Positions 4,514 to 59,331 of a DNA stretch of 64,000 bases are shown here, one piece after another. The first letter of the stretch is position 1; each line of letters begins with the position of its first letter. Under the pieces are notes generated by a model. It searched no databases, was not told the origin of the DNA, and saw only the letters and a list, made by a program, of their open reading frames with translations. The translations under genes and the position numbers were made by a program. This stretch comes from Amanita rubescens (Eukaryota > Basidiomycota > Agaricomycetes > Agaricales > Amanitaceae), in NCBI GenBank assembly GCA_015039365.1, contig WION01000092.1, positions 1 through 64,000 of the forward strand, written 5' to 3'.

Positions 4514-4797
4514 ATAGGGTGGGATAGGTTCAAATTGATTGAACCAACAGATTTGACATCTCCGGTTCTTTGAAAGAAAAGAGTATTTATGGTGTATGTA
4601 AAATGAATCGTATTTAATTGTAGTTGTAGTACGGTTAGGGATGTGTAGAGATTAGGAATGAATAGTGGCACGCGATATGAGTTGTAAACATGTGGTCAAC
4701 ATGCAACATATGCGTGCAGGTTCCGCGAGCGCTGCCATCGCAAAAGCCGCTGCCCGGTCGGTCCATCGAATGCGTGAGCGATGGGTAAGAGCGCAAT

Positions 4798-5312
4798 TCA
4801 TGCTCGTCTCGCCTTTCCCCTCTTCTTTGGTTTTGTAACGGACTCGGGTAACCACTCATTCGCACTCAAATCTTTATCGGAGTCAACCGGTTTTTCCACT
4901 CTTTCCACTAGAGGTGGTCGGTCGAGTATGCTCGAACTGGTATCTTGGTTGGGATGCATTTTCTCCGCCCGTGCAGCTGCCTCTGCGATTTCTTCAGGGC
5001 TAACCTCCTCTCCTCTCCTTATCCGGGCTGCAATATCTGGTGTGATACGTATTTTCTTGACGTTCGTTTGAAAACCTGGTGCTGTAAAGCAAACACGTTA
5101 AGGTCAAGCTGAAACCAAATTTTCGTTTCGCACCGCCTTTTCCAATCCCATGTACTTTTAGACGCCAGGCGAGGTACCATTTGCGAGCAAAGTAACCTGC
5201 AGATAGCAGGACTGGAGGTATACTATTCCAACACTCGTTAGTTAGGGTAAGAATAATATATGCCTACGTACATTATCCACCACAACGAAGGGTATTGATC
5301 AGACTCTTGCAT
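4798..5312 (-). CDS. small single-pass membrane protein, unit 1
   Basis: Three exons encode about 140 residues. The protein starts MQESDQYPSLWWI. A 5' intron with a CTAAC branch site is removed, then a hydrophobic helix (IPPVLLTAGYFACKWYLAW-like) is followed by a basic LKKHGIGKGGAKREF segment. After a second intron comes APGFQTNVKKIRVIPDIAA, a helix around EEVSPEEIAEAAARAEKMRR, an acidic Ser/Asp-rich stretch and a basic tail KPKKRGKARRA before the TGA at 4798-4800. One TM segment with a basic cytosolic flank suggests an organelle or ER membrane protein. The family is not recognised. It is divergent from the FIST gene, with only about 40 bp between start codons, so a shared promoter is likely. 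Confidence 0.6.
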
Positions 5313-5353
5313 GATTGCGTGCCACGTGGCAAACGATCAACTCAAGTCAATCA

Positions 5354-6868
5354 ATGCCAGTTCTTCACCTCAGCACGATCATCTCTCGCAATTCAACTTC
5401 TCTCCTCTCACACATTTCTCGCCTCGCTAGATCATTCCCAAATCACCCACTCTTATTCACACTTTCGCACAACAGCACAACAGACTCTGCGGTTGATTTG
5501 TCTAGGATAGTCGGACAGTTGACCACTTTCTCTTCGCAGTCGATCGGGTGTCTCTCTGCACCGTTACCGGGGCCGCATTCGGGGTTTACAGCTTGCTCGT
5601 TGGCGATTTTTGACCCTCAAAATGTCGCGGCCGTGTTTCGTTCGACGGTTCCTGGAAGACAGCGGGCGCAGGTTGGGCGATGGAGGCCGGTTGGACAGAA
5701 AAAGGAACTTGGAGAGGATCCGCGGTTAGGCCAAGGTTGGTGGCAAGGAGAAAGCGTAAAAGATTGGGAAGACGTTTGGAATTCCAGTGTTGAAACTCAG
5801 GTGTTGCCGGAAGGATTGAAAGGCAAAGAGTCAGTGATTCCGTATAAGCTTAGAATCTGGCTTTTTGACTCGCGTTTCAGGGATATCTCATCTATCATAT
5901 ATCTGACGGACGATGCACCCGAAGGGTTGTCCAGTTCGCTGTTATCCAACTATTCCAATTCGTCGCAAGTTGGTCTCGTTGCTTCTTCGACGCCATTCGT
6001 AAACGGCAGACCGTTCACGCTCTTTCACAATAAACACGTGTACGACTTGGGCGCCGTTGGGATTGCTCTCAAAGGATCCACTGCGCGCGATTTTGCCTCT
6101 GGCGTCTCTTTCGTCGGTCTTTCGCCTGTATCGAAACCCATGAATGTAACACGGTATGCCTCGCTTTGCCTTCCCATTTTGGCAAAAGCTCATATATATA
6201 TGCGCATGTAGATGCGAAGGCAACATGGTCATCTCGTTGGACGACCAAAATCCAACTCAATTATTACTATCGTGTATTCGCGAATCTGGCCTTGCTGAGA
6301 CTCCTTCCAGCCTCAAAGATGACCTAGGATTCGTCCTAGGCGTTGTCGAAGACGGAGAGGTGACGTTTCGCATCAATGTATCAGACAATTGTTTCTCAAC
6401 TGGAGCTTAGCTTGTCCAGGTGCACAAGATAACCGCCGGTGACCCGTCCCGCGGGACCATCTCATTGGGTACCCAAAGTTCTCCTAAAGAGGGCGCTACC
6501 GTTCAGGTGCGAATTGTCTAACTACTTTATCCTATTTTTATCTCATTCGAACCTAGTTTTTCCACCGCGGGACAAATTCGCTACACGATCCTCTCACAGA
6601 ACAAGGCATACTTTTCGCACCATATGCATCGACTGGGGAGGAGCCATCATTCAAGCCGAAATCATTGAACTTTTTCTCAGTTACTGGAGACGACATGTTC
6701 AAGGCTCAAGCAAATAGCGAAGGCGCATATATCTTACAAGATACTTTTATAGCGGCGAGTGAGAATGGGTTTTTGTTCAGCCCAAAGCAGCGTGAGCTAA
6801 GGGAAAACTCGTGGACTTGCGCTGTCCCTGGGGCTTTCGCTACTTTGGAATGCGTCTATGGAGATTAG
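5354..6868 (+). CDS. FIST-domain protein, unit 1
   Basis: Four exons (5354-6153, 6212-6377, 6420-6506, 6557-6868) give 454 residues. The N-terminal half has GCLSAPLPGPHSGFTACSLA and VAAVFRSTVPGRQRAQVGRW, resembling FIST_N. The C-terminal half has NMVISLDDQNPTQLLLSCI, HKITAGDPSRGTISLG and a final NSWTCAVPGAFATLEC, typical of FIST_C. FIST domains are intracellular small-ligand sensing modules, and fungal versions have no assigned substrate. An in-frame TAG at 6408-6410 is removed if a 42-nt intron (GTATCA...TGTCCAG, 6378-6419) is spliced. That removal preserves frame in all three units. I chose the ATG at 5354 because the upstream frame lacks an ATG. Confidence 0.7.
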
Positions 6869-14749: not shown

Positions 14750-15266
14750 TTATGCCCTTCTCGCCTTTCCCCTCTTCTTTGGTTTTGTAACGGACTCGGG
14801 TAGCCACTCATTCGCACTCGAATCTTTATCGGAGTCAGCCAGTTTTTCCACTCTTTCCACTAGAGGCGGTCGGTCGAGTATGCTCGAACTGGTATCTTGG
14901 TCGCCGCGACGCATTTTCTCCGCCCGTGCAGCTGCCTCTGCGATTTCCTCAGGGCTAACCTCCTCTCCTCTCCTTATCCGGGCTGCAATATCTGGTATGA
15001 CACGTATTTTCTTGACGTTCGTTTGAAAACCTGGTGCTGTAAAGCAAACGCGTTAGTAAGGTCGAGTTGAAACCAAATTCTCGTTTCGCACCGCCTTTTC
15101 CAATCCCGTGTTTTTTTAGACGCCAAGCGAGGTACCATTTGCAAGCAAAGTAACCTGCAGTTAGCAGGACTGGAGGTATACTAGTATTCCAACACTCGTT
15201 AGTTAGGATGTATGCCTTGAGAAATACGCACATTATCCACCACAATGAAGGGTATTGATCAGACAT
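14750..15266 (-). CDS. small single-pass membrane protein, unit 2
   Basis: Same three-exon gene as at 4798-5312. The start here is ATG at 15266 (MSDQYPSLWWI, so the N-terminus differs slightly from unit 1) and the stop is TAA at 14750-14752. The first intron has a GTGCGT donor and a TCCTAACTAAC branch region. It is head-to-head with the FIST gene starting at 15305. Confidence 0.6.
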
Positions 15267-15304
15267 CACTTGCCACGTGGCAAAAGATCAACTCAAGTCA
15301 ATCA

Positions 15305-16819
15305 ATGCCAGTTCTTCACCTCAGCACGATCATCTCTCGCAATTCAACTTCTCTCCTCTCACACATTTCTCGCCTCGCTAGATCATTCCCAAACCACCCC
15401 CTCTTATTCACACTTTCGCACAACAGCACAACAGACTCTGCGGTTGATTTATCTAGGATAGTCGGACAGTTGACCACTTTCTCTTCGCAGTCGATCGGGT
15501 GTCTCTCTGCACCGTTACCGGGGCCGCATTCGGGGTTTACAGCTTGCTCGTTGGCGATTTTTGACCCTCAAAATGTCGCGGCCGTGTTTCGTTCGACGGT
15601 TCCTGGAAGACAGCGGGCGCAGGTTGGTCGATGGAGGCCAGTTGGACAGAAAAAGGAACTTGACAAGGATCTGCGATTAGGCCAAGGTTGGTGGCAAGGA
15701 GAAAGCGTAAAAGATTGGGAAAACGTTTGGAATTCCAGTGTTGAAACTCAGGTGTTGCCGGAAGGATTGAAAGGCAAAGAGTCAGTGATTCCGTATAAGC
15801 TTAGGGTCTGGCTTTTTGACTCGCGTTTCAGGGATATCTCATCTATCGTATACCTGACGGACGATGCACCCGAAGGGTTGTCCAGCTCGTTGTTATCCAA
15901 CTATTCCAATTCGTCACAAATTGGTCTCGTTGCTTCCTCAACGCCATTCGTAAACGGCAGACCGTTCACGCTCTTTCACAATAAACACGTGTACGACTTG
16001 GGCGCCGTTGGGATTGCTCTCAAAGGATCCTCTACGCGCGATTTTGCCTCTGGCGTCTCTTTCGTCGGTCTTTCGCCTGTATCGAAACCCATGAATGTAA
16101 CACGGTATGCCTCGCTTTGCCTTCACATTTTGGCAAAAGCTCATATATATATGCGCATGTAGATGCGAAGGCAACATGGTCATCTCATTGGACGACCAAA
16201 ATCCAACTCAATTATTACTATCGTGTATTCGCGAATCTAGCCTCGCTGAAACTCCTTCCAGCCTCAAAGATGACCTAGGATTCGTCCTAGGCGTTGTCGA
16301 AGACGGAGAGGTGACGTTTCGCATCAATGTATCAGACAATTGTTTCTCAACTGGAGCTTAGCTTGTCCAGGTGCACAAGATAACCGCCGGTGACCCGTCC
16401 CGCGGGACCATCTCATTGGGTACCCAAAGTTCTCCTAAAGAGGGCGCTACCGTTCAGGTGCGAATTGTCTAACTACTTTATCCTATTTTTATCTCATTCG
16501 AACCTAGTTTTTCCACCGCGGGACAAATTCGCTACACGATCCTCTCACAGAACAAGGCATACTTTTCGCACCATATGCATCGACTGGGGAGGAGCCATCA
16601 TTCAAGCCGAAATCATTGAACTTTTTCTCAGTTACTGGAGACGACATGTTCAAGGCTCAAGCAAATAGCGAAGGCGCATATATCTTACAAGATACTTTTA
16701 TAGCGGCGAGTGAGAATGGGTTTTTGTTCAGCCCGAAGCAGCGTGAGCTAAGGGAAAACTCGTGGACTTGCGCTGTCCCTGGGGCTTTCGCTACTTTGGA
16801 ATGCGTCTATGGAGATTAG
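15305..16819 (+). CDS. FIST-domain protein, unit 2
   Basis: Exons 15305-16104, 16163-16328, 16371-16457 and 16508-16819. It differs from the unit 1 protein at about a dozen residues, mostly conservative (for example VWLFDSRF for IWLFDSRF), and is nearly identical to unit 3. An upstream ATG at 15245 is in frame and would add 20 residues. I prefer 15305 because the equivalent upstream codons in unit 1 have no ATG and overlap the divergent gene's start. Confidence 0.7.
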
Positions 16820-24701: not shown

Positions 24702-25218
24702 TTATGCCCTTCTCGCCTTTCCCCTCTTCTTTGGTTTTGTAACGGACTCGGGTAGCCACTCATTCGCACTCGAATCTTTATCGGAGTCAGCCAGTTTTTC
24801 CACTCTTTCCACTAGAGGCGGTCGGTCGAGTATGCTCGAACTGGTATCTTGGTCGCCGCGACGCATTTTCTCCGCCCGTGCAGCTGCCTCTGCGATTTCC
24901 TCAGGGCTAACCTCCTCTCCTCTCCTTATCCGGGCTGCAATATCTGGTATGACACGTATTTTCTTGACGTTCGTTTGAAAACCTGGTGCTGTAAAGCAAA
25001 CGCGTTAGTAAGGTCGAGTTGAAACCAAATTCTCGTTTCGCACCGCCTTTTCCAATCCCGTGTTTTTTTAGACGCCAAGCGAGGTACCATTTGCGAGCAA
25101 AGTAACCTGCAGTTAGCAGGACTGGAGGTATACTAGTATTCCAACACTCGTTAGTTAGGATGTATGCCTTGAGAAATACGCACATTATCCACCACAATGA
25201 AGGGTATTGATCAGACAT
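24702..25218 (-). CDS. small single-pass membrane protein, unit 3
   Basis: Near-identical to the unit 2 copy. One noticed difference gives Arg for Cys in the hydrophobic/basic junction (GYFARKWYLAW). Start ATG 25218, stop TAA 24702-24704. Confidence 0.6.
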
Positions 25219-25256
25219 CACTTGCCACGTGGCAAAAGATCAACTCAAGTCAATCA

Positions 25257-26771
25257 ATGCCAGTTCTTCACCTCAGCACGATCATCTCTCGCAATTCAAC
25301 TTCTCTCCTCTCACACATTTCTCGCCTCGCTAGATCATTCCCAAACCACCCCCTCTTATTCACACTTTCGCACAACAGCACAACAGACTCTGCGGTTGAT
25401 TTATCTAGGATAGTCGGACAGTTGACCACTTTCTCTTCGCAGTCGATCGGGTGTCTCTCTGCACCGTTACCGGGGCCGCATTCGGGGTTTACAGCTTGCT
25501 CGTTGGCGATTTTTGACCCTCAAAATGTCGCGGCCGTGTTTCGTTCGACGGTTCCTGGAAGACAGCGGGCGCAGGTTGGTCGATGGAGGCCAGTTGGACA
25601 GAAAAAGGAACTTGACAAGGATCTGCGATTAGGCCAAGGTTGGTGGCAAGGAGAAAGCGTAAAAGATTGGGAAAACGTTTGGAATTCCAGTGTTGAAACT
25701 CAGGTGTTGCCGGAAGGATTGAAAGGCAAAGAGTCAGTGATTCCGTATAAGCTTAGGGTCTGGCTTTTTGACTCGCGTTTCAGGGATATCTCATCTATCG
25801 TATACCTGACGGACGATGCACCCGAAGGGTTGTCCAGCTCGTTGTTATCCAACTATTCCAATTCGTCACAAATTGGTCTCGTTGCTTCCTCAACGCCATT
25901 CGTAAACGGCAGACCGTTCACGCTCTTTCACAATAAACACGTGTACGACTTGGGCGCCGTTGGGATTGCTCTCAAAGGATCCTCTACGCGCGATTTTGCC
26001 TCTGGCGTCTCTTTCGTCGGTCTTTCGCCTGTATCGAAACCCATGAATGTAACACGGTATGCCTCGCTTTGCCTTCACATTTTGGCAAAAGCTCATATAT
26101 ATATGCGCATGTAGATGCGAAGGCAACATGGTCATCTCGTTGGACGACCAAAATCCAACTCAATTATTACTATCGTGTATTCGCGAATCTAGCCTCGCTG
26201 AAACTCCTTCCAGCCTCAAAGATGACCTAGGATTCGTCCTAGGCGTTGTCGAAGACGGAGAGGTGACGTTTCGCATCAATGTATCAGACAATTGTTTCTC
26301 AACTGGAGCTTAGCTTGTCCAGGTGCACAAGATAACCGCCGGTGACCCGTCCCGCGGGACCATCTCATTGGGTACCCAAAGTTCTCCTAAAGAGGGCGCT
26401 ACCGTTCAGGTGCGAATTGTCTAACTACTTTATCCTATTTTTATCTCATTCGAACCTAGTTTTTCCACCACGGGACAAATTCGCTACACGATCCTCTCAC
26501 AGAACAAGGCATACTTTTCGCACCATATGCATCGACTGGGGAGGAGCCATCATTCAAGCCGAAATCATTGAACTTTTTCTCAGTTACTGGAGACGACATG
26601 TTCAAGGCTCAAGCAAATAGCGAAGGCGCATATATCTTACAAGATACTTTTATAGCGGCGAGTGAGAATGGGTTTTTGTTCAGCCCGAAGCAGCGTGAGC
26701 TAAGGGAAAACTCGTGGACTTGCGCTGTCCCTGGGGCTTTCGCTACTTTGGAATGCGTCTATGGAGATTAG
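25257..26771 (+). CDS. FIST-domain protein, unit 3
   Basis: Exons 25257-26056, 26115-26280, 26323-26409 and 26460-26771. The protein matches unit 2, apart from a CCGCGGG to CCACGGG change near the start of the last exon (FFHHGTN instead of FFHRGTN). The 42-nt intron needed to skip the TAG is conserved. Confidence 0.7.
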
Positions 26772-27495: not shown

Positions 27496-30400
27496 CTATA
27501 TCAGCAATTCCAGCTCAAAGAAGACAGGGACTGAGTTACATAATAAATTGTTAAGGACTATTTTCCTGAATTCAGCACACTCTTCATCAGATGGGTGATG
27601 TTTGATGGTGAACCAATCACCGATGTCCTTTGACCTCAAGTAGTGATCCACTTCTTGTTCAGCCAGTGCATGCTGGGTCTTCAGATAAAGTTTCCAGGCC
27701 TTGGTGAAGCCATCAGTGGAATTGCAGCCTTGCTGGACAATCCAAAAGGAATGTTCAAGACAAATAAGGATGGCTGTCCATGTAATGGTAAGAAACTGCA
27801 AATATAGAAAGGGTAGGATTAATCAGACCAAAGAGACAGTGCAAAGAAGGTGCCTATGTAATTGGGAATACTTGAGTGAAGGGAATGAAAGAAGGAAATA
27901 TGACCTTACATTGAATTGAGTTTTCACAAGACCCTGAACATTCATTACCTGTGAAATGTAGGCCTAGTATTAATGGAGTAGGGCAAGGAGAATGGATGGG
28001 AGAAGACAGGTACAAACTAAACAAATGTTAGGAATTCAAATTGAGCTAGGAGGCACACAGTGACTCACTGCCTGGATGGGATTTCATGGCAACATGTCAG
28101 CAATTCAAATTGAGCTAGGAGGCACACAGTCACTCACAAGCTGGATGGGATTTCATGGCAACATGTCAGTAATTCAAATTGAGCTAGGAGGCACACAGTC
28201 ACTCACAAGCTGGATGATATTTCATGGCAACATGTCAGCAATTCAAATTGAGCTAGGAGGCACACAGTCACTCACAAACTGGATGGGATTTCATGGCAAC
28301 ATGTCAGCAATTCAAATTGAGTTAGGAGGCACACAGTCACTCACTCCCTGGATGATATTTCATGGCAACATGTCAGCAATTCAAATTGAGCTAGGAGGCA
28401 CACAGTCACTCACTCCCTGGATGGGATTTCATGGCAACATGTCAGCAATTCAAATTGAGCTAGGAGGCACACAGTCACTCACTCCCTGGATGGGATTTCA
28501 TGGCAACATGTCAGCAATTCAAATTGAGCTAGGAGGCACACAGTCACTCACTCGCTGGATGGGATTTCATGGCAACATGTCAGCAATTCAAATTGAGCTA
28601 GGAGGCACACAGTCACTCACAAGCTGGATGGGATTTCATGGCAACATGTCAGCAATTCAAATTGAGCTAGGAGGCACACAGTCACTCACAAACTGGATGG
28701 GATTTCATGGCAACATGTCAGCAATTCAAATTGAGCTAGGAGGCACACAGTCACTCACTCGCTGGATGGGATTTCATGGCAACATGTCAGCAATTCAAAT
28801 TGAGCTAGGAGGCACACAGTCACTCACTCGCTGGATAGGATTTCATGGCAACATGTCAGCAATTCAAATTGAGCTAGGAGGGACACAGTCACTCACTTGC
28901 TGGATGGGATTTCATGGCAACATGTCAGCAATTCAAATTGAGCTAGGAGGCACACAGTCACTCACTGCCTGGATGGGATTTCATGGCAACATGTCAGCAA
29001 TTCAAATTGAGCTAGGAGGCACACAGTCACTCACTGCCTGGATGGGATTTCATGGCAACATGTCAGCAATTCAAATTGAGCTAGGAGGCACACAGTCACT
29101 CACTCCCTGGATGGGATTTCATGGCAACATGTCAGCAATTCAAATTGAGCTAGGAGGCACACAGTCACTCACTCCCTGGATAGGATTTCATGGCAACATG
29201 TCAGCAATTCAAATTGAGCTAGGAGGCACACAGTCACTCACTCCCTGGATAGGATTTCATGGCAACATGTCAGCAATTCAAATTGAGCTAGGAGGCACAC
29301 AGTCACTCACTCCCTGGATGGGATTTCATGGCAACATGTCAGCAATTCAAATTGAGCTAGGACACACACAGTCACTCACTCCCTGGATGGGATTTCATGG
29401 CAACATGTCAGCAATTCAAATTGAGCTAGGACACACACAGTCACTCACTCCCTGGATGGGATTTCATGGCAACATGTCAGCAATTCAAATTGAGCTAGGA
29501 GGCATACAGTCACTCACTCGCTGGATGGCAACATGTCAGCAATTTAAATCAAGTGAAGGAGGCACACAGCAGCTCACCTTCTAGATATGAGGTGAATCAT
29601 TTCTATCAATTTGGAATTCTCCATGTAACTTGCTTATTACCTCCTATTCATGACATTCAGAAGTTACCTTCCTATCACTTTGAAATTCTCACATCATCCC
29701 CCTTATCATTTGCATAATTAGTATATTGTCAAATGAGCTTAATGTCATACTCACATACTGAATACCCAGATTAAACTTTGTCACCAATATTTGGTCATGA
29801 TACTTACATCCTGAAACAACTGTCATCACCATCTTCCCTGGCTCAAGTAGAAGTGGACTCTCACATAATCCTTCTCAGTTTCAGTCATGGCTCAAGAAAA
29901 TGCATTCAATTTGCATACCTGCTGATAGCAATGTCCAAACCAAGATGCAGCCTTGTAAATCAAGTTATCCTTTGTTTATTTGAGCACTCAAATCTCTACA
30001 ATTGAAGAAAAAATGTACCACTGTTGAGGTATTCTCAAAGATAAACCTCATAGAGAGATAAGTTGAAGGAACAGCATATGAGTGGATGACAGACTGGTTC
30101 AATGCATATTCAATGCAGACCCCTAGGTTATTCTGTTGGACAGTGACAAACAACATCTTCAGTGCCATGTCATCAATTGATGCCGCTGTCTGTTTGATTA
30201 GTTCCCCAACTTGTTCCTGATGATTACCTTCATCCTCCTGGATAGCTGGGCATGCTATAAGTCCCAAGATTGGTCACTAAATGTGGAGACATACATTCAA
30301 ATCGCACATATGTGCAAGGTGGAAACTTGTAACCCTTAAGTGGCTGCTCAAATTTCTTCTCCAAGGCAGCACAAGCAACTTCTCTATTCTTCTCATCATC

Positions 30401-46639: not shown

Positions 46640-47639
46640 AGGCAGCATCGCAGGTATGAAAACTGTATATAATTATCAATCCATCGTGCTAAACTAGCGG
46701 ATTTGATTAGTTTAAAAGTTCGGACCGCATAGTGCACCACCAAGCCATTCCAGGAGAAGCGAATAAAGTACATTTGTATCGAAATCCACAAGTCCTTATG
46801 CATGCCCTCCTCGACGGTCGCAATCTCTTGTTTTGAAATTCTCGTGGTGGCTCCAGGCGATTACCGCCGGTCGGAATCAAAGCTATCAGCCGATATGGTT
46901 GCCGATCATCTGGTCACTTATCAATTGCTCTTTTCTATTCGGATCAGACCGTCTGATGACCCTTTTTTTTTAAGTGGAGGGGAAGTGGATATGTAGTCTG
47001 TCCAAAGCGCACTTGACATCTTCTAGTTCAGAATGAGTAAATGAAAGACCTAGAACAATGTCACAAGGCCTGTGGGCTAAGTACAGTATTGAATTATCAC
47101 AAAAGAGAATGTACGTACTTACGTTCGAGCTGTCGTACGGCCATGCCTAACCAAATTACGTTAGCCTTCCGAGACAAGATCTTCCGAATGGACATCTACC
47201 CTGCAGGGTCCAATGATAACTCCTTGTGAACGCAAAGTAGACCCTTGCCGTCGGTTGCATGCCTACCCACAATTTGCGCGTTTGATGCTATGATACACGC
47301 GCTATCTCATAGTCTGGCGTAAGCGTCAGCGCTTTCTGCGTCGCAGGGTGCCCTCAACAAACAAGGGCAACGTTAAACTTGTGATATTCAAGATGCCGTC
47401 CCCCATGGGAGAATTGTCAAATATAGCGCCCGTGGGACCAGGCGGTCAAAGCGGGTCGAAGATCGTGGAAGCAAACCTTGGCAAATATCATATTCATGTG
47501 TTCCGCGAGCTGATATGTCCGAAGGAAAACGGAAAACTCTCGTGAGTTCGCCCCGTTGGCATAACTCCATCACTCTCCGTAAGTTCACCGTCCAGCATAA
47601 TGGCAATGTCTTACTATCGATTGCAGTCGCTGGCCAATA
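46640..47639. other. intergenic, no gene recognised
   Basis: About 1 kb between the HsbA promoter and the octapeptide gene. Small frames only. A short overlapping frame starting at ATG 47600 is out of frame with the large gene and is probably chance. Confidence 0.4.
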
Positions 47640-50600
47640 ATGGGATGTCCAAGTCTTCCTCTGATCCGAAGTCCCTCGAAAAGGAAATCAGGCGCACTTC
47701 CGTCTGCCTTCAGACCCTCATTCGTTTCCCCGTCAGCGCGAGCTGTACCATATCGAATCTCATACCTATCCACCTCATCTTCGCGAGCAACAGCTCCTGT
47801 TCTGATAACTTTCGACGACTGGGATAGGGGCGGTATCTTTGACTGGTACAGAAGTCTCCATCGCACCGCCATCCACAGAATCGAACTCTGGAAGGAAAGG
47901 GACGACTTCAAGCACGAGTTTGTCGTAATCCATTTGGAAAGCGGGACCCTTTACCGCATTGACAGGAGGCCATTCGGAGGAGCGAATCCCGACGCCGTTA
48001 CTGTAAAAGGGTGCAAAGCCGAAGACAGTGTAACCCTCGTTGACAGGAAGCAACGAGAAACTATCGCATCGAAAGCAGACGTGCAGATTTCGGTGGACTT
48101 CAATGGACACAAGAAGCCCGATCTGTACACTGTTGTCGCTATCTGCGTCAGTGTTCAGATGGACGACCAAGCTAAAAACTATACGTTGCAGCAGTATAAC
48201 TGCTACTTCCTCGCACGCACCATTGTTGCTCTCCTAGTCCGTCATCACTTGCTCCAGCAGTTCGCGTCTCTAGAAGGCATCAGGTGGGACACCGTAGCTG
48301 CATCGACCTTCCCAAGGCACATTTTCGGCAATAACGGGGCTGTTTTGGATCGGGCCCAGAGATCCGCGTTAATTACAAGCCTTGAAAAGAGGCTTTGGCC
48401 GATTGTCAAAGCCGATGCGGAGACACTCGTTCGAAAGCAAAAACATTGGCATCAACTTCAATCGATCATGAAGGACGTCATCCGTGATACCACTTCAAGG
48501 TTGGAAAGCTTGGTTGTCGATTCGGTGAAAACTGGCGCGAACGAATGGGTTATGGCCGCGATACAAGCAACTTTATGGCATGGTAATCTCGAACGGAATT
48601 TGTCAGAGCCCCGTTACAGACGCAGCTATGAAGAATCAGTAGCAAACGTCTTGAAGAGAACTGTCAGCAAGGAACTCCAGAAGGAACTACCTCGGAGGAT
48701 GGTGTCCAGGCTCGGGGACATACTCCCGCAGCGTCTCTTCTCCAGGCTTCCGCCGTCGCTACTCGCAAATTTACCTCCAGAGCTTCTAACTCGACTTCCA
48801 GCGAGAGTCCTTGAAAAACTTCCACAGGATATTCTTGTCAATATGCCTCCGGAACTCCTATCACAATTACCTCCGGAACTTCTGGCGCGCATTCCAAAGA
48901 GTATTATCGAGAAACTCCCTGATGAACTGCTTGTCAATCTCCCGCCCGCGCTACTGGAAAATATGCCGCCGGAACTCTTATCGCGTATTCCGGTCAGCGT
49001 TATGGAAAGATTGCCGGACGATTTCTTCGCCCGATTACCACAATCTCTGCTGGAACGAATGCCTCCAGAGTTCATGGCGCGTATTCCTATTAGCGTAATG
49101 GAGAGGATACCTGGCGATCTTCTTCTCCGACTGCCGCACTCCCTACTTGAGGCTATACCGGCGGAAGTCCTGACTCGTATCCCCATTAGCGTTATTGAGA
49201 GGTTACCAGATGACCTTCTCGTTCGGCTGCCATGTTCTCTACTCGAACGGATGTCTCCGGAATTTATGGCGCGTCTTCCGGTCAGCGTAATAGAGAGGGT
49301 GCCAGACGATCTGCTTGTTCGACTACCACACTCCTTACTTGAAAAATTGCCTCCGGATCTCTTGGCCCGCATTCCCACCAGCGTCTTTGAAAGATTGTCG
49401 GATGACCTTCTCATCCGATTACCACATTCCTTGCTTGAAAAATTGCCTCCAGAGTGCTTGAAACGGATTCCAATCAGTGTACTGGAGAGGTTACCCGACG
49501 ATCTCCTTGTTCGGTTACCACGTTCTTTACTCGAGTCTATCCCTGTCGAACTCTTAACTCGTATCCCAGTCAGCGTCATAGAGAGGTTGCCTGCTGACCT
49601 GCTGGGCCAACTACCGAACTCCCTACTTGAGATTATTCCTCCAGAACTCTTAGCTCGTATTCCGGCGAGCGTCCTTGAGAAACTCCCAAGTAATCTCCTC
49701 GCGAGGTTACCAAATCACGTCCTAGAGAAGCTGCCGAATGATCTCCTTGGCCGGCTACCAGCCTCCCTCCTGGACAGTCTACCACCCGAGCTCTTGGCTC
49801 GAATTCCCATCGACGTCCTTGAGAGGTTGCCCGACCCCCTCCTTGCCGCTTTGTCTCCGTATCTCCTTGAAAAAATGCCTGCGGAACTGCTAGGACGTAT
49901 TCCGGTCAGTGTTCTCGAAAGGCTGCCGGACGAACTTCTCGTCCGATTACCATCGTCTCTATTGGAAAGGTTACCAGTCGGCTTATTAACTCGCATCCCA
50001 ACAACCTTGCTCGAGAGATTGCCGAACGACCTTCTCGTCAGATTACCACCTTCGTTCCTTGAACGACTTCCTGCCGAAGTCTTGGCACGTATCTCTTCTG
50101 CCGTGCTCGAGAGACTGCCCGAAGAACTCCTCGCTAGTCTTCCGCCCACTCTCCTTGAAAATCTTTCTGTTGAACTTTTAGCGCGCATGCTGAGCGTTCT
50201 CAACGACTTGATAGACGATCCACCTATTAAATTACCTGCTGATCGAGCCTCGATGTCACCAGAAGAATTCGTACAGTTACTCCATGACAATTTGGCTGCG
50301 CAACTTCCTAATGTCATTTCGTTCGTGCTGAAGGGAGATTTAGGTGGCAGTCCGCAGGGAAACCTTAGGATCGTATTGCAGGGAATGCGGGTCATGTTCA
50401 AGGACACGCCTGATCATCCAGATCAAGGATTACCCGAGGACTTGCCAAAACGCCTCCCAGACCAATCAAAAGAGCAATGTAATCAATGCGAAAGTGGATC
50501 CTCGGCGATGCCAATCGACTCTCAGAAATCGGTTTCTCCCGAGCCACCGGCTATCTCCACGGCCATGGCGCCAATCTTCGGGCCTGCTGTTTTAGAGGCG

Positions 50601-51395
50601 GAGGCCGAGAAATCCCCTGTTGAAAGGACGGCTACCGACCTATCGACGACTTCCATTGCAGAAGCTCAATTCAGCATCCTCGGACTGGCACTGACCGTCA
50701 CACCTCGCTTTGTCCTTGAACAGCTTCCATGCATGATTTCCTTATTCCCAATATCATGGTTGAAAACAATTCCGCCGAAAGCTCTTGGAAAGCTGCCGCC
50801 CAAGTGTATGGCCAGATTTCAAGCACAATGCCTCGAACGACTGCCTCAAGAGCTCCTTGCCAATCTACCTCCTTCGCTGTTGCAAAATTTGCCACGGGTG
50901 ACACTCGAGAGGCTCCCGACGACGCTTTTAGCAAGATTACCCGTATCAATCCTGAAGAATATCCCAGATTCATTGCTGGAAAATCTACCGGAAGATCTCT
51001 CTGATATGATATGCCAGGCTTTAGCGTCTGAAAACCTTATAAGTCAGGAGATGATGAATGAAATCGTTAAGAGCGTTGTGGAAGTCGTCAAGGAATCGTT
51101 GTTGACATCATCAGGCGATCTACCAGAATCCATTATCCGGGTTTCGGTCAAATCGCGGTCGAGGGCGAAGGCGTCAGGTAACCTGAAGACGTTAAAGAGG
51201 CATGAGGAGTTACAAAACCACATCCTTGACATGACCCGGAGACATAGCAAAACGGTCGCTCAAGTTTCTCGCTTTGGTCTTGGTGAAGAGGCGGTCTACA
51301 ATGGGTTGCGAGATAAAACAGAGGATGTATGGAGGACTATGCGTTCTCATGGAACCCCTCCCAAACGTTTTGGCCGGATGCTCGGCGGAAGTTGA
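47640..51395 (+). CDS. 1251-residue octapeptide-repeat protein with predicted papain-like N-terminal domain
   Basis: One uninterrupted frame from ATG 47640 to TGA 51393-51395, unusual here because most genes are intron-rich. Residues ~85-220 contain KHEFVVIHLESGTLYRID and QQYNCYFLARTIVALL, a His then Asn-Cys arrangement as in NlpC/P60-LRAT-like papain-fold proteins; this assignment is inferred. Residues 370-849 are sixty consecutive octads of type LPxxLLxR (for example LPDDLLVR, LPHSLLEK, IPVSVIER, LPPELLAR), often grouped in fours (32 residues). A second shorter block of similar octads lies at about residues 1030-1120. The tail has a basic KSRSRAKASG. No TM segment. Likely a scaffold or binding solenoid; function unknown. 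Confidence 0.85.
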   Translation: MGCPSLPLIRSPSKRKSGALPSAFRPSFVSPSARAVPYRISYLSTSSSRATAPVLITFDDWDRGGIFDWYRSLHRTAIHRIELWKERDDFKHEFVVIHLESGTLYRIDRRPFGGANPDAVTVKGCKAEDSVTLVDRKQRETIASKADVQISVDFNGHKKPDLYTVVAICVSVQMDDQAKNYTLQQYNCYFLARTIVALLVRHHLLQQFASLEGIRWDTVAASTFPRHIFGNNGAVLDRAQRSALITSLEKRLWPIVKADAETLVRKQKHWHQLQSIMKDVIRDTTSRLESLVVDSVKTGANEWVMAAIQATLWHGNLERNLSEPRYRRSYEESVANVLKRTVSKELQKELPRRMVSRLGDILPQRLFSRLPPSLLANLPPELLTRLPARVLEKLPQDILVNMPPELLSQLPPELLARIPKSIIEKLPDELLVNLPPALLENMPPELLSRIPVSVMERLPDDFFARLPQSLLERMPPEFMARIPISVMERIPGDLLLRLPHSLLEAIPAEVLTRIPISVIERLPDDLLVRLPCSLLERMSPEFMARLPVSVIERVPDDLLVRLPHSLLEKLPPDLLARIPTSVFERLSDDLLIRLPHSLLEKLPPECLKRIPISVLERLPDDLLVRLPRSLLESIPVELLTRIPVSVIERLPADLLGQLPNSLLEIIPPELLARIPASVLEKLPSNLLARLPNHVLEKLPNDLLGRLPASLLDSLPPELLARIPIDVLERLPDPLLAALSPYLLEKMPAELLGRIPVSVLERLPDELLVRLPSSLLERLPVGLLTRIPTTLLERLPNDLLVRLPPSFLERLPAEVLARISSAVLERLPEELLASLPPTLLENLSVELLARMLSVLNDLIDDPPIKLPADRASMSPEEFVQLLHDNLAAQLPNVISFVLKGDLGGSPQGNLRIVLQGMRVMFKDTPDHPDQGLPEDLPKRLPDQSKEQCNQCESGSSAMPIDSQKSVSPEPPAISTAMAPIFGPAVLEAEAEKSPVERTATDLSTTSIAEAQFSILGLALTVTPRFVLEQLPCMISLFPISWLKTIPPKALGKLPPKCMARFQAQCLERLPQELLANLPPSLLQNLPRVTLERLPTTLLARLPVSILKNIPDSLLENLPEDLSDMICQALASENLISQEMMNEIVKSVVEVVKESLLTSSGDLPESIIRVSVKSRSRAKASGNLKTLKRHEELQNHILDMTRRHSKTVAQVSRFGLGEEAVYNGLRDKTEDVWRTMRSHGTPPKRFGRMLGGS
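48747..50186 (+). repeat. sixty 24-bp units coding LPxxLLxR octapeptides
   Basis: Exactly 1,440 bp, sixty in-frame 24-nt units without a single indel. Base sequence varies widely at third positions while Leu/Pro/Leu-Leu/Arg positions hold, so the pattern is kept at protein level. A 96-bp higher order (four octads) is visible, with signatures ending LLVR, LLER, MAR/LAR and VIER. Confidence 0.9.
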
Positions 51396-52213: not shown

Positions 52214-52219
52214 GGAGGG
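52214..52219. repeat. target site duplication, left
   Basis: GGAGGG directly abutting the left inverted repeat, repeated exactly at 57541-57546 in the same orientation. Confidence 0.85.
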
Positions 52220-52247
52220 TACCGTTGCCGACAAGGACATGGTCAAC
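52220..52247 (+). repeat. terminal inverted repeat, left (28 bp)
   Basis: Begins TACCGTTGCCGAC and ends GGTCAAC. It is a perfect 28/28 reverse complement of 57513-57540. Sequence similarity ends abruptly inside and outside. Confidence 0.95.
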
Positions 52248-52795
52248 ATATGGGCATTGATCCGCATTCCTACAGCAAGTCTTGGGGTCCTGGAACCCTT
52301 AGATCTTCCTGCTGTCACGCTCTACTGCAGGCAAATGTATATTGGGAATTTACGCTGTATGGCCGTCGCTTAGGTTTATGTCAACAGGTACAAATAGACT
52401 AGATCATTCCTCGTTTGGTTTAGGCCGTCCCTGGGCCAAAGAGAGCGTAAAGAGAAACGCAAAGAGAGCGCCAAAGAGACAACTCCCGACTTGCAGAAAT
52501 CGTTACACAATGTTTAGAAGAACACCGCGGATGAAATTTCCCACGTTCTATCTCCTCCACGGCGACGCGTGTTTGATCATGACTCAGTCGCCAGATTCTG
52601 TGTCGCCCTCTCACCTTCGAGTCATATTTGACTCTAGCAAGTGGCTGGGCCAACTCCGGGCAGTAGGTGTGCCAGATGAAGGCTATTTTGCCTTGACGAG
52701 CTTCGGGCGGCTGACGGAATTCTACAGGTTTTCTTCTAATACGTGTACGTCATTAAGTTTATTTGATTCCCCTCTCATCCTTGTAACACAGTGCC

Positions 52796-54588
52796 ATGGC
52801 ATCCTCAAGTTCGCACAACAGAAATCCTGAAGGGAAGAATCAATATGGACATGTCAGTGAGTTGAAACTTTCCAGTTACTTTATCGTTTATCCTCAGTGG
52901 CACATTATTCTAGTATCCGCCAATGATCCAGTCCTGCAAGAGGCTCTGAAAAAATATCATCAGGGATTGATCACGGATAACAACATAATCTCTGAACTAC
53001 TCCTCGCTGATTATGGGATTGAGATGAAGTAGGCATAACGAGTCTTGGACGTCGATATCTACTTATATATACTTTATTTCTTGCTAGGCCCAGGACCGTA
53101 AAAAAGCGCCGTGAGCAGCTTGGACTCGTGGCAAGCAGAAAGACTATGAAAATGCTTGACCCCATAGAAGCGGAACAAATCGTTTTGGACCAAATGGATG
53201 ATGACGCTGCGAGACATCAGGGTCCCAGAACGATACGACACAAGATCGCTATGAGAACAGGCAAACACCTTCCACGCGACTATATTTCAGACATCATGCA
53301 CACCCATGACTTTGAGGGCTTCGCCAAACGGGATCCCACGGCCAAACGCATTCACCGTGAGCCGAAGGTCCCACTTGGTATCAACGAACGGTGGTCAGCG
53401 GATGGACATGACAAGCTCAACGGAATTGGTTTTCCTGTATGGGCTATTGTCGATGATGCGGTTGGGAAGTGGTTGGGTGTCTGGGTAGTGCCTAGTAACC
53501 GCCTAGGCAACATTATTGCCTACCTATATCTCGAGGCCATTGAAAGTGCCGGCGGTATGTCTTTTACTAAGCGCAAAACTTGCTGACTGTCTTGACTTTG
53601 TGTAGGAATGCCGCTTCAAAGTACTACAGATTGTGGGTCAGAAACAACCCAGCTTCATGGTATCGCAAAAGCCTTACGGTGAGATTCATTTATGCTTAAT
53701 ATGGTTTATCATGTTTTTATTTCGGCGCTTTTGAAGCGATGCCTTTCACCCAGATGTCTGTGGCATAGAGACGCCCGCACATGTTTATGTCCGGAGCGTT
53801 CACAACATCTCTATTGAACGTGGCTGGCTGCGTTTACGCTTAGAGTTTGGTGACAGCGCGGTCATTGTTTTCAAGAAAGCTGAGGAGGATGGAATATATC
53901 TCCCTCATATTCCCGAGCATGCGTTCGTTCAATTCTAATTCTACCATTATCTTTGAACTAATAAACATGACTTTATCCAGCCAGCTGTGTCAATGGCTCT
54001 GGCCAAAGCTTTTGCGAAAGCTTGCTAAAGAGTTCATGGACAGTCGGAATGCATACCGGTCTCGCCGTGACCGCAGCAAACCTGGCCCTTCTGGCATGTC
54101 TCGCAATGAGGCATATAGTCTTCCTCACAAGTGGGGAGGCCGGCAGTGCCTTCTTGATGTTGATCTGGATACTGTCCGTGAGATTAAGGACTTCATCAGT
54201 AATGGCGAAGATTTGTTCCGCTTTCCGCTCGTCACTGCTGAATTTGAAAGGGAAGCTGAGGAAGTTTATCAGACCCTGCATATTCAGGACCTTGCGCTCT
54301 CAAACGTCTGGAATATCTTCCGTATGATGTTACCCCTTCTGTTTCCTTGAATGTATTGTCTCCTTCAGACACCGAAATTCAATTTAGACTTTGTTCCGCT
54401 TTTTTAAATGTATTCCTTAAGATCCTCCCGCTTTTGAGAACTCCAAGGCCAGGGAACACCCGCCTGTTCCATCTCACGTGGTTTTGCTCAAGGAAAAGGT
54501 GCGCTTTGTTGTATTTCTTTCCTCCTAGGCCAACGTGAACTCTAACGTGAACTCTTTAGCCACTTATGGCCGTTTGCGCTGGCTGTGA
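52796..54588 (+). CDS. integrase-core (DDE) transposase-like protein
   Basis: About seven exons. The start is ATG 52796 (MASSSSHNRNPEGK). The N-terminal part has ILVSANDPVLQEALKKY and RTVKKRREQLGL, a helix-turn-helix-like segment. The catalytic core reads GINERWSADGHDKLNGIGF (first Asp), VWAIVDDAVGKWLGVWVVPS, MPLQSTTDCGSETTQ (second Asp) and SVHNISIERGWLRL (Glu in IERxW), the rve integrase D-D-E pattern. The C-terminal part includes RSKPGPSGMSRNEAY and HPPVPSHVVLLKEK, ending GRLRWL at TGA 54586-54588. It is the presumed recombinase acting on the 28-bp ends. The frame is intact on my splice model. Confidence 0.8.
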
Positions 54589-57315
54589 ACAAAAATTTCC
54601 CCGGCTCAATGTTAACCGATGTAGCAAATGTCTTGCTCGGAAGCCTGGTCTTGGTCCTCCTGAGATAGAATCTCTGAACGTGAGTGACGTTCATGCCATA
54701 ATTTTGCATGGTGTTTAACAGTAAACCCTTTAGTCACGGCCACAATGTGCTGGATGTGGGCTTATGGGTAACAAAATTTCAGGACTATGTAATGGGTGTA
54801 TCACTTTTTACCGTAAGTTCGTTTATCTGAATTTGTCACGCCTCCATTGATGTTTTAATTCAGAGTCTGCCACTGCTATTCCTCGGGAGTTAATGGGAAA
54901 CTCCAAGATACTGGACCTACTTATCAATGCCGATGCCGCTAGCGACAGTACTTCTATTGTTGGAAATCTAAGCCCTACGACCAATTCTATTCTTGGGAAT
55001 GCAGTGATTCATCAGGAAAATGCATCCGAGTCCAGGATTGGGGTTCGGGTTCGTAGGGGGGTGGAAAAGCCAGAGACGGCAGGATTACCGCGCTTCAAAA
55101 GCCTTTCAAAGTTGGCAGGTAGTGGCGCAGTCAGTATTACAACTGAGAGAAAAATGAAGAAATCCGATTGGGTTCAACAACAATCAACTATGGGCCCAAA
55201 GTTTTCGATCGCACTTTGGAAATCTCAAGGTGTTCAAGACAAACCTAAACAGGTAGAGAGTGATTCATCTTGTATCATTGCTCTTCGTTTTTAAGCCCTA
55301 TATTTTAGGTCAACCAGATCCAGTTTTCACGTGTCTATGATGCATCTACACCAATGAGAAAGGTTCTTGATGATTTACTTGAGCGTCTGAATGCCGACTT
55401 CAAAAATTTGTTTCAAGTTGAATATGATATCCGCTGGTAAGGACTACTTGAGCCTGTTTCATGCTCTAACATTGTGAACTTAAAGGTCGCAAATCAAACT
55501 GTTTGCGCATGAAAGTGCTACCATTGCAGCATCTATAGAGTACCTTCGAGCTCCTGAAGCGATTGACTTAGAAACTGCGGGTGGCTGGCTGAAGGAGTTC
55601 CGAACTCAACGGCTATGTTCAAAGGCTTCGCTTGAGGCAGGAATCCTCAACATCCGTTTTGTAGTTGATGACGCATTAATTGTGAGTGTCAGCATCATAT
55701 TTTTTATTAGTACATGCCTAAAACCACAATTTTACCAGCCTGGCAACACCGAATCTCAGGATGAAGATGGCTTCTTGATGAGTCGACAGGCCGGAAAGTC
55801 AGTAAAGCCCTCAACAGCATTGCACTCAAAGCGAAAACGTGCCGATTCAGCACTAGCTCTTACTTCAAAGCGTCCGAATTCCCAAGCTTCAACTCAGGCA
55901 CAAAATATTTTACAGGATGCTGGACGCATGTTTCTTCAGCCTGGCCTCCCAGCAAGCGCTATGCAGCCCGTTACAGGAAGTTTAAATCGCCTCCCTTCAG
56001 TGCAAGTAAAGTCTACCAGTCAGCCGGGTGCGCGCACTCTTAAAAGTGCCTTTCGCCCTCCGCCTTCAGCCATTCAATGGTCTAGAGATGTTCCACTTGC
56101 CAACTACCAATTTACATGTTCAACAGCACAATATCAGCCTGATGGTGAAGTCAGAATCACAAGGGTTTCAGAGAAGCTGGAGGTTATTGCAATCGCCGAA
56201 GACTGGCTGAAAGGTGAAGAAATGTGGGAGAAGAGTGAACAGCATTACAAGACTGGATTTATTGGCCGTGGCTTTACGAAGCGTGGTATATATGTATGTC
56301 CAAAGTGTTTTCAAGCCTTAACTGACAATCAAGCTAATATCTGTCAAAGGCACGTTATAACAACAAAGAATACGTCATTACTCAGCCCTTTGATGAATAT
56401 ATGTCCCTTTCAGATGTTCGGGGCGTCTTGCTGGCTGAGCTTAAGCTCCTGGCGCAATGCAATGGTATAAAGAAGGAGTTTGACAGATTTATCAAAGAAG
56501 GCGACATCAAGGGGATCCCCGGTATGTAACCATATGTTTTAATGTCTATCTTTTAAACATACTGACCGGTTATGCCAGCCTTTTACTTTAACTTTCAGGA
56601 CACGTTTTATGGTGAAATCGAGCCACTGTCAGCATCCAGGCATCGTTCTATCCCTCATATTGGATTCCTTGCAACACCATTACTTCCATGTGGGCGTTTT
56701 GATGATCCGGTCAAGAAATTCACTGGAAGTGACAATCTCGGACCCGCAAATGACAGTATGACTCAGGCGGTACATGCCTTTGTCCATTTTGCGTGGATCT
56801 ATTCACGAGAACAACTCCTTTTTTGTGATATGCAAGGTTCGTAATCTTCCTCACAATGTTGTCCTGAATCCACTGATGTAATCAATGATAGGCACACGCG
56901 ACCGTACTGGAAAACTATGTCTAATTGATCCTCAGGCTCATACGTGTGTAATTTCAAGCTGCTAAATAGTGCTAATCAACTTATTCATCTCGTACTTAGA
57001 ATCGAGCCACGCACTGACAACACCATTTACTGGGATGGAGGAAAAAAGAAAATTGGGGCTTGGATGGAGCAGCATCTCCCCCAGGCCGACGATTCAACTT
57101 CTGGGCTCTCAACATCAGTAGACGTCAGCAGCCTTTGTGAGAACAATCGGATATGTAATGCTTTAGGGTTGCGCACCCTCAAGCTTGAAATGCCAGCCGC
57201 GGAGGACTTTGATGGCCCCAGAGAGTCGGAGAACCCTTCCCCTTCACAATCAACGGCAAAAAAGCCAAGTTTAGATTTTTTAGTTCATAAAAAAGATATA
57301 GATCCTAGGGCTTAA
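54566..57315 (+). CDS. alpha-type protein kinase (transposon cargo)
   Basis: ATG 54566 lies 23 nt inside the 3' end of the integrase gene. Exons 1-2 encode two Cys knots (MAVCAGCEQKF...CSKCLAR and QCAGCGLMGN...LCNGC), probably zinc-binding. A Ser/Lys-rich linker of ~350 residues follows. The kinase domain has GFTKRGIYARYNNKEYVITQ, LLAELKLLAQCNGI, DTFYGEIEPLSA, SMTQAVHAFVHFAWIYSREQ, FCDMQG and CLIDPQAHT, the order and motifs of basidiomycete alpha-kinases (MHCK/eEF2K superfamily). A last exon adds YWDGGKKKIGAWMEQHLP and ends KKDIDPRA at 57315. It phosphorylates Ser/Thr in helical contexts in known members; the target here is unknown. Confidence 0.8.
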
Positions 57316-57512
57316 ATGGCCTACATCCGAATGCTTAATACATGATGCAATATCATGCCAATATGTGTTTTGATGTGAAATTACTAAGCTCGACAGTGAA
57401 CACCGGCGGCGCAGCATTAAAATATTAAAATAGATGTGGTCACCTTGTGACGCCCAGTAACGAGGACCCCGGCAGACAAAAAAGGATATGAAATCGAAGA
57501 CTCAGGCTAAGG

Positions 57513-57540
57513 GTTGACCATGTCCTTGTCGGCAACGGTA
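57513..57540 (-). repeat. terminal inverted repeat, right (28 bp)
   Basis: Exact reverse complement of 52220-52247. It lies about 200 bp downstream of the alpha-kinase stop codon. Confidence 0.95.
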
Positions 57541-57546
57541 GGAGGG
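57541..57546. repeat. target site duplication, right
   Basis: GGAGGG immediately after the right inverted repeat, the same six bases as at 52214-52219. Confidence 0.85.
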
Positions 57547-57680: not shown

Positions 57681-59331
57681 ATGTCGTCCGAGTTGATCAG
57701 GTCTGTCGATGTCACTGAACGCGCCAGAGATAGTAAGTGGGGCGACGCTGAAAAGTAGGTCAATCGCGAGCTGAACAACCCCGCGCTGACTATAATCCAT
57801 AGATATCTTCTCACCAAAAACACCATAAAATTTCTGGGTGTACTCGCTTTCCAGGAGGTTGACTATGCGCCGTTGGAAGCTACTTTGCGAGATATTGTCC
57901 AACTCCTGGATGAGCGTCTCTCCACGGCCAGCAATTACGTCGACCTCAAAGATGTGACTAAACCGGCTGTCGCCCTTCCACCCACCAAAGTAATCCTTCA
58001 ACCTCGCGGCTCCTTCGCATCGCGTACCGCCCTGCGTGGGCACGTCGATCTCGACTTAGACTTGTGTTTTCCGGAGAATTTCAAAATCCTGCTCAAGACC
58101 AGCAAAGCCCTGATACAGCGCTCCATCGGCCAGGTCTTGGGCGCCCCCGACTTTCTCGATAATCCAAAGGCCGATGGCCGTGATGCAAGCGGTAGCCAAC
58201 TCTTTACCAAGGATGGCCTGCGCTTCGTTATGCTTTATGTTTGGGGGAAGCTTGTCAGCGCTACTCCCGAGACTTTCGCCCTTGAGGAGAAGTACTTCCC
58301 TGGGAAAATAACCGACCAGACAACGATGGAAGTTAAAGTTACGAAGCCCCTTACTATGCGCATACACCCTGACAAAACTCTCTCGACACTCACGCGATCC
58401 ATCTCCGCCCAAATCACGAGCAATAAAACCTATCCCAATCTCGAAGTGGATTTTTTTGTCAAAGTCATCACGACTAGGTTTGCTGGCCAAGAGGTTCTGG
58501 TTGGCGTAGATAAAGATGGTCCGCTAGGAGTCAGGCAGTACCAGGTTACAACGTTCATTCCCAGTGGAAAAGAGTGGATCGGTAGTCTTCCCTTAGGACC
58601 AATCGACCGAGCTGCCATTTTGGCGCTCAAATGGTGGAAGAACAGTATCAAGGACGATAAAACAATTCCTATGTTTCCTGTAAGCAATGCATACACATCT
58701 CCAACTTAGATTAACGATTCTCTGTCAGGTTCGTGATCCAAGCCTGATGAAGACCCCCGACGACCCGACGGTTCCGATACGAGACAGAAAGCTGGAAGAT
58801 ATCAAGATCAAGTCCCATCATTTTCTCGCTGCCTTGAACACGTTGCACGAGCTTCCAGTGACGGACCCGCTGTATGTCCCCACTGTCTCTTCGCTTCCCT
58901 TCTCCCTTGTCAGAGTTATGGACGTTATGATCAAGATATTGACATTTCTTGATCGTGCATATTCCCCTCCTCAGCGTTTCGGCATCGTTTTGGACAATAA
59001 CTGGAGCAAAGACATACCTCCAAACGTAGTGGATCCAAAGACTGGCAAGGTCACGAAGTACAATGATAGGGTGATTTACCCCTTCCCAGTGGTAATTTTA
59101 TCTGTGTTGTGTTTGTAGAATTGGAGTAACGACATTTGAATCTTACAGGAATCGCTCGGCGTATTCGATATTATCTATCGGCAGGCTAGCTCAAACATTG
59201 CCGAATATGAGGCCATTATCAAAAGCAAAGTTATACCAAGCTTCGTGTCCAGGCTAAAGGATGCCCTGGATAAATTGGCAAAAAGTAAACCTGCATATAC
59301 CCCCTCTACCTACGCTTTCGAAGAACTTTAA
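57681..59331 (+). CDS. OAS/cGAS-like (CD-NTase fold) nucleotidyltransferase
   Basis: Exon 1 starts MSSELIRSVDVTERARD. Splicing (donor GTAGGT near 57752) joins it in phase to YLLTKNTIKFLGVLAF. The catalytic region is PRGSFASRTALRGHVDLDLD: a GS motif followed by a D-x-D pair, as in pol-beta-type OAS/CD-NTases. A third acidic site fits NLEVDFFVKV. The second domain has AAILALKWWKNSIKD and IKSHHFLAALNTLHELP, like the OAS1 C-terminal domain. It ends STYAFEEL at TAA 59329-59331, about 490 residues in four exons. Such enzymes join nucleotides, often into 2'-5' or cyclic signal molecules. Whether this one is an oligonucleotide-signal synthase or another pol-beta NTase is inference. Confidence 0.7.

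Follow-up and report, generated by a model that had tools for sequence, protein, structure and literature searches.

Elements of the IS3EU superfamily end in TA..TA, usually generate 6-bp target-site duplications and encode a transposase whose first catalytic aspartate lies 100–300 residues from the N-terminus (PMC10045372). Fungal members that also encode a TET/JBP dioxygenase (TET+ IS3EU) are reported from seven rust species and from Tuber indicum; those of the rusts have TAYGG..CCRTA ends and end repeats of more than 30 bp, and in all TET+ IS3EU elements as described there the TET/JBP gene lies between oppositely oriented transposase and alpha-kinase genes (Kojima, 2025; PMC12730594). As far as that report was covered, IS3EU is not among the TET+ lineages that it lists for Agaricomycotina (PMC12730594). 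IS3EU elements have been listed in Ganoderma and Phlebopus. Here we describe a transposable element of 5,321 bp from the agaricomycete Amanita rubescens, located at positions 52220-57540 of a 64,000-nucleotide stretch (assembly GCA_015039365.1, contig WION01000092.1, positions 1 to 64,000; hereafter the window), with two intact genes inside, encoding an integrase of 423 amino acids (aa) and an alpha-kinase of 752 aa. We consider it, with a probability of roughly 85 %, to be a complete and recently inserted DNA transposon, probably autonomous, that belongs to the IS3EU superfamily (IS3EU/GingerRoot lineage) and in which the alpha-kinase is a maintained accessory.

In common with the fungal TET+ IS3EU elements, as these are described (PMC12730594), the Amanita elements have duplications of 6 bp, ends similar to TAYGG..CCRTA, end repeats close to 30 bp in length and a transposase together with an alpha-kinase. 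The TET/JBP gene of the described elements has a motif-only counterpart in two siblings of the window element; it lies between the other two genes there, whereas here it lies beyond the kinase (both siblings) or is absent (window). GingerRoot shares the transposase lineage of IS3EU and likewise has 6-bp duplications and mostly TA..TA ends, but the report on it (PMC10045372) describes it from a clubmoss, supposes that animals have related elements and does not use the word 'kinase' in its main text. The Intons are also fungal, derived from IS3EU and equipped with extra conserved proteins; by their description, they and the Entons together have five to six conserved proteins, compared with two here (PMC3520738).

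Anatomy of the element

The features of the element and its immediate flanks, by window position, are as follows.

52214-52219, unstranded: left target-site duplication GGAGGG (from the sequence; present once in the joined query to which the empty sites correspond)
52220-52247, + strand: left terminal inverted repeat, 28 bp, beginning TACCG (comparison of the arms; related ends elsewhere in the genome)
52796-54350, + strand: DDE (Asp-Asp-Glu) integrase/transposase gene (splice model; Pfam rva_4, PF24764)
54566-57315, + strand: alpha-kinase gene (splice model; Pfam Alpha_kinase, PF02816)
57513-57540, - strand: right terminal inverted repeat, 28 bp, finishing CGGTA (comparison of the arms)
57541-57546, unstranded: right target-site duplication GGAGGG (from the sequence; comparison of the flanks)

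An initial annotation of the window, made from the sequence by itself, had proposed perfect 28-bp terminal inverted repeats, a 6-bp target duplication and, inside, an integrase-core and an alpha-kinase gene, and all of these are borne out. The two arms are complementary over 28 nt (100 %), and the 28-mer has just two occurrences in the window at up to three mismatches, with none in 100 shuffles; GGAGGG stands directly outside both arms, and both proteins pass the cut-offs of their Pfam families. The integrase matches rva_4 with 30.9 bits (cut-off 26). Its spliced model is open from ATG to stop and comprises six exons (52796-52856, 52914-53028, 53088-53554, 53606-53678, 53737-53922 and 53981-54350, stop included), and the proposed catalytic triad (D164, D223, E266) lies inside blocks that are conserved in all three full elements of the genome. 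A search of NCBIfam gave no match for the window integrase and just two, far under the cut-off, for that of one sibling (C704), and no relative was found when viral contigs were scanned with the latter.

The kinase model, likewise open from ATG to stop, has ten exons (54566-54679, 54734-54812, 54864-55252, 55309-55436, 55486-55681, 55739-56293, 56350-56521, 56579-56836, 56892-56943 and 57000-57315, stop included). Its product matches Alpha_kinase with 47.4 bits (cut-off 21.3) in a C-terminal domain, aa 491-673. The D-x-Q-G motif of alpha-kinases is catalytic, and this motif and a DPQ motif are kept in all three full elements; in the sole PDB match of the kinase (4kuj_A, aa 596-652) CDMQG aligns with CDIQG of the solved protein. 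CxxC pairs are present at the N-terminus, and zinc-ribbon matches in the C704 copy are weak and under cut-offs. An automatic splice alignment reproduced the exons of both genes, although it was queried with the same proteins and is thus no independent proof. A single fused integrase-kinase gene, with an intron bridging 54351-54565, was considered and rejected: the integrases of both siblings also end in a stop codon at the corresponding position, and about 200 bp further on the kinase model opens with an ATG of its own. No third gene is evident in the window element, where other open frames of at least 70 aa were not searched individually against protein families; just 225 bp separate the kinase stop from the right end, and the dioxygenase-like gene of the siblings is therefore absent.

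The empty sites

Approximately 100 bp of left flank, including one GGAGGG, were joined to approximately 100 bp of right flank, and the whole 75.7-Mb genome was searched with this query. Of the six matches, two are the window's own flanks and four are full-length (1 to 201), with 100 % identity on contig C13 and 99 % on C303, C63 and C132, and so the empty site with a single GGAGGG that the initial annotation had predicted is present at four places of the same genome, at 99-100 % over 201 bp. The insertion of the window element is thereby demonstrated. The right flank runs on for 1,160 bp at 99 % in the same four places, and three further matches reach just 75-77 %. A single region in nearly identical copies, whether alleles, duplicates or members of a repeat, thus underlies both the occupied and the empty sites, and the window copy appears to have gained the element recently. 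Adjoining the insertion is an open frame (57759-58706) that is also found in the four near-identical places; by our own reading it contains a stretch resembling the GS..DxD motif of nucleotidyltransferases, and it has no Pfam match.

Related elements in the genome

Searched with the integrase, the genome gave matches on the window's own contig (C779) and on C704 and C289, together with a short fragment on C246; the kinase matched C779, C289, C704 and a set of deletion copies. A looser pattern of the element end, run over the whole genome, gave 55 matches: 44 were exact, one had a single mismatch, and the other ten, each with two or three mismatches, may be due to chance, since a reversed control pattern also gave 10. 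The good matches pair as the window element, two siblings on C289 and C704, the 1.57-kb copies and eleven pairs of about 1.0-1.6 kb, with eight left unpaired. The sibling at C289:107293-115763 measures 8,471 bp and has perfect 32-bp end repeats; that at C704:45405-51864 measures 6,460 bp and has perfect 29-bp end repeats. All three full elements are organised alike, with the kinase following the integrase in the same orientation between related ends, in agreement with the earlier suggestion that the kinase moves with the integrase. Amino acid identity of the integrases is 61 % between window and C289, 64 % between window and C704 and 79 % between C289 and C704; for the kinases the corresponding values are 38, 38 and 65 %. 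The ratio of non-synonymous to synonymous substitution rates (dN/dS), calculated for the C289-C704 pair (synonymous sites are saturated in comparisons with the window), is 0.125 for the integrase (417 codons) and 0.223 for the kinase (624 codons; stops left out, and C704 represented by its first ten exons, the last two having been dropped where the automatic model overran into a third gene).

Five deletion copies retain positions 1-635 of the window element (or the later part of this segment) joined to 4160-5321, with one common deletion joint. Three of them, on C311, C462 and C79, share a larger region that is almost the same in each (99.55-99.70 % identity over 3.28-3.57 kb, counting the element itself), and the number of independent insertions among the five could therefore be as low as three. 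One copy (L033), counted outside gaps, agrees with the window element at about 92 % of aligned bases, and in the two of five copies that were modelled the kinase remnant reads with stops. At C673:52233 and C673:171318 one end is degraded or missing, and no duplication was established. The initial annotation had also envisaged that copies elsewhere might share the ends and never the kinase; kinase sequence is, however, present in both siblings and in all five deletion copies. As a separate observation, a perfect end match at C673:55576-55599 faces the C673:52233 end from 3.37 kb away, past the truncated end of the 1.57-kb copy at that place, and is possibly part of a nested or rearranged copy.

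The eleven further short paired-end copies (about 1.0-1.6 kb) were read at their ends, 30 bp each, in ten cases (C668 left out). Taken with the window element, the two siblings and one of the three joint 1.57-kb copies, they make 14 insertions, and a direct duplication touches the ends in every one: nine of 6 bp, three of 7 bp and two of 5 bp (the flanks on C89 and C151 are mirror images and may be one insertion). The two siblings and the ten short copies all have TACGG..CCGTA ends (12/12). Perfect end repeats span 28-32 bp across the elements, counting the 30 bp read in the short copies, and the window element has 28 bp.

Classification and alternative explanations

The initial annotation knew of no named transposon family with this pair of genes and this structure. 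IS3EU, as described, matches the ends, the duplication length and the enzyme type, and the fungal TET+ IS3EU elements carry an alpha-kinase (PMC12730594), so that what was an unknown transposon can probably be placed in a named superfamily. The duplication is 6 bp in the window and exactly 6 bp at 9 of the 14 insertions; the termini are of the TA..TA form (TACCG..CGGTA in the window, TACGG..CCGTA in 12 others); the integrase has an rva_4 domain and the first residue of its proposed catalytic triad, D164, falls in the 100-300 range; and an alpha-kinase accompanies it in 3/3 full elements. The pairing of integrase and alpha-kinase is thus already known from IS3EU; particular to the present element are its compactness, with two genes, and their unusual arrangement. 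No publication joining alpha-kinase, transposon, integrase and Agaricomycetes was found, and in the literature combining alpha-kinases with basidiomycetes, DNA transposons or rusts PMC12730594 alone, as far as these sources were covered, puts an alpha-kinase inside a transposon; the pairing may be described elsewhere.

Several observations weigh against this interpretation. The window ends TACCG..CGGTA are one base off TAYGG..CCRTA; transposase and alpha-kinase share one orientation in all three full elements instead of being opposed; the assignment to IS3EU is based on the ends, the length of the duplication, the type of domain and the gene content, not on a transposase tree; the short integrase fragment occurs on a contig, C246, to which no kinase match maps; and in-frame stops, which may be model errors or decay, are found in the kinase models of C289 (one) and C704 (two) and speak against full function in these siblings. 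The gene orientation, the comparison by description instead of by transposase sequence, and the detection by Pfam of just the rva_4 core in the window integrase would all fit a new superfamily of rve-type transposons whose resemblance to IS3EU is confined to the ends, the length of the duplication and the presence of a kinase; we think this unlikely because the ends, the duplication length, the enzyme class and so unusual a companion as an alpha-kinase coincide with IS3EU. Among the other rve-type eukaryotic transposons, Polintons are large elements that include polymerase genes and genes of capsid type. That the element is a Polinton or of Ginger type is barely credible: Polintons too have 6-bp duplications, but the window element has just 5.3 kb, two genes and TA..TA ends, and the duplications are of 4 bp in Ginger1 and 4 or 5 bp in Ginger2 (PMC10045372).

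The alternative that concerns the kinase itself sees in it a host gene picked up by chance and carried along passively, and capture of host genes by transposons does occur. All five deletion copies multiplied, by amplification or duplication, with a kinase remnant alone, so that an intact kinase is not needed in cis, and the stops in the sibling models point in the same direction. Against this, the kinase is found in 3/3 full elements even though that of the window is just 38 % identical to either sibling's, and a dN/dS of 0.223 between the siblings disfavours neutral evolution, and we regard chance capture as very improbable. Both siblings have related ends and keep integrase and kinase in the order seen in the window element, which makes the kinase a standing part of the lineage and not chance cargo.

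A proposed role for the kinase

The anatomy of the element lends good support to cut-and-paste transposition by a DDE transposase. The integrase-like DDE enzyme would bind the ends, excise the element and join it to the target with a stagger of about 6 bp, and repair would then produce the duplication. The integrase/kinase pair persists though the kinases have diverged to 38 % identity, and the kinase therefore probably does something for the element; from this persistence and the signature of selection we infer that it serves the element. We picture the kinase as a maintained accessory that would act in trans. Our best guess is that it would help transposition to succeed by phosphorylating either the transposase itself or a host protein involved in silencing or repair.

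Past the kinase, each of the two siblings has a third gene that runs in the opposite direction (C704 46100-47318; C289 112370-113460), and the encoded proteins are related. Their family gives 94 match rows over many contigs of the genome, often several with equal score. Neither protein has a Pfam match, and their PDB matches are at chance level. Both contain an H-x-E motif (IHREQ in C704, IHKEE in C289) followed later by HGTSL, and HxE in place of HxD is described as a hallmark of PE-type TET/JBP dioxygenases (Kojima, 2025; PMC12730594). Judged by this motif alone, the third gene encodes a probable, not a proven, dioxygenase and is a candidate for a PE-type TET/JBP-like enzyme; the Tet_JBP profile gave four matches in the genome, all under the family cut-off and on contigs other than C289 and C704. 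The dioxygenase-like gene of the siblings would counter silencing by methylation, and the window element would represent a compact form without it.

It is tempting to speculate that IS3EU transposition in general, from rusts to mushrooms, makes use of the alpha-kinase as a conserved and functional accessory, that transposon genes make up a sizeable share of the alpha-kinase expansions in these fungi, and that kinase and dioxygenase-like gene form a two-enzyme anti-silencing kit of which the window form is a stripped-down version, a proposal that we put forward tentatively and consider possible without thinking it the likelier outcome. For studying what a transposon kinase does, the element offers a tractable system: the insertion is recent, both genes are intact, and the genome provides empty sites as well as short copies whose ends are related. 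For annotation there is a warning, namely that some fungal alpha-kinase genes are transposon genes.

Integrase and alpha-kinase numbers

Alpha-kinases have been called highly expanded in rusts (PMC4469406) and appear in the enriched-domain table of a wheat-rust comparison (PMC5295586), as far as these reports were covered. The initial annotation had supposed that expansions of integrase-core genes and alpha-kinases may be linked, and this holds for the present element lineage, in the three full elements with both genes, and is conjectural beyond it. Three of the seven alpha-kinase matches in the genome lie in the full elements (window, C289 and C704). The 47 match rows of PF24764 share no contig with these seven, a result of little weight because the exon-by-exon profile search listed none of the three full elements' integrases and so misses integrases of this kind.

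Seven rva_4 matches with identical scores and frames, on C35, C42, C49, C135, C277, C318 and C719, have no alpha-kinase match on their contigs and probably belong to another recently amplified integrase-type element. The genome also gives 38 match rows for DUF6533, a family expanded in Agaricomycetes. Two alpha-kinase matches, C69:75613-76143 and C305:3525-4055, have equal scores, and on C69 an open frame downstream of the match resembles, in our own reading, a retrotransposon gag.

Other features of the window

Three near-identical open frames about 10 kb apart (5315-6208, 15221-16159 and 25173-26111) suggest a tandemly repeated block, and the middle one has a FIST-domain match just under the cut-off. 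The open frame at 28064-29581 is built of repeat units of about 23 aa; as a whole protein it matches DUF7212, over the cut-off though no single stretch passes, and it also matches other families. A frame of 1,264 codons (47601-51392) contains many repeats of LPxxLLxRLP type, and its one match, to Cornifin, is below the cut-off.

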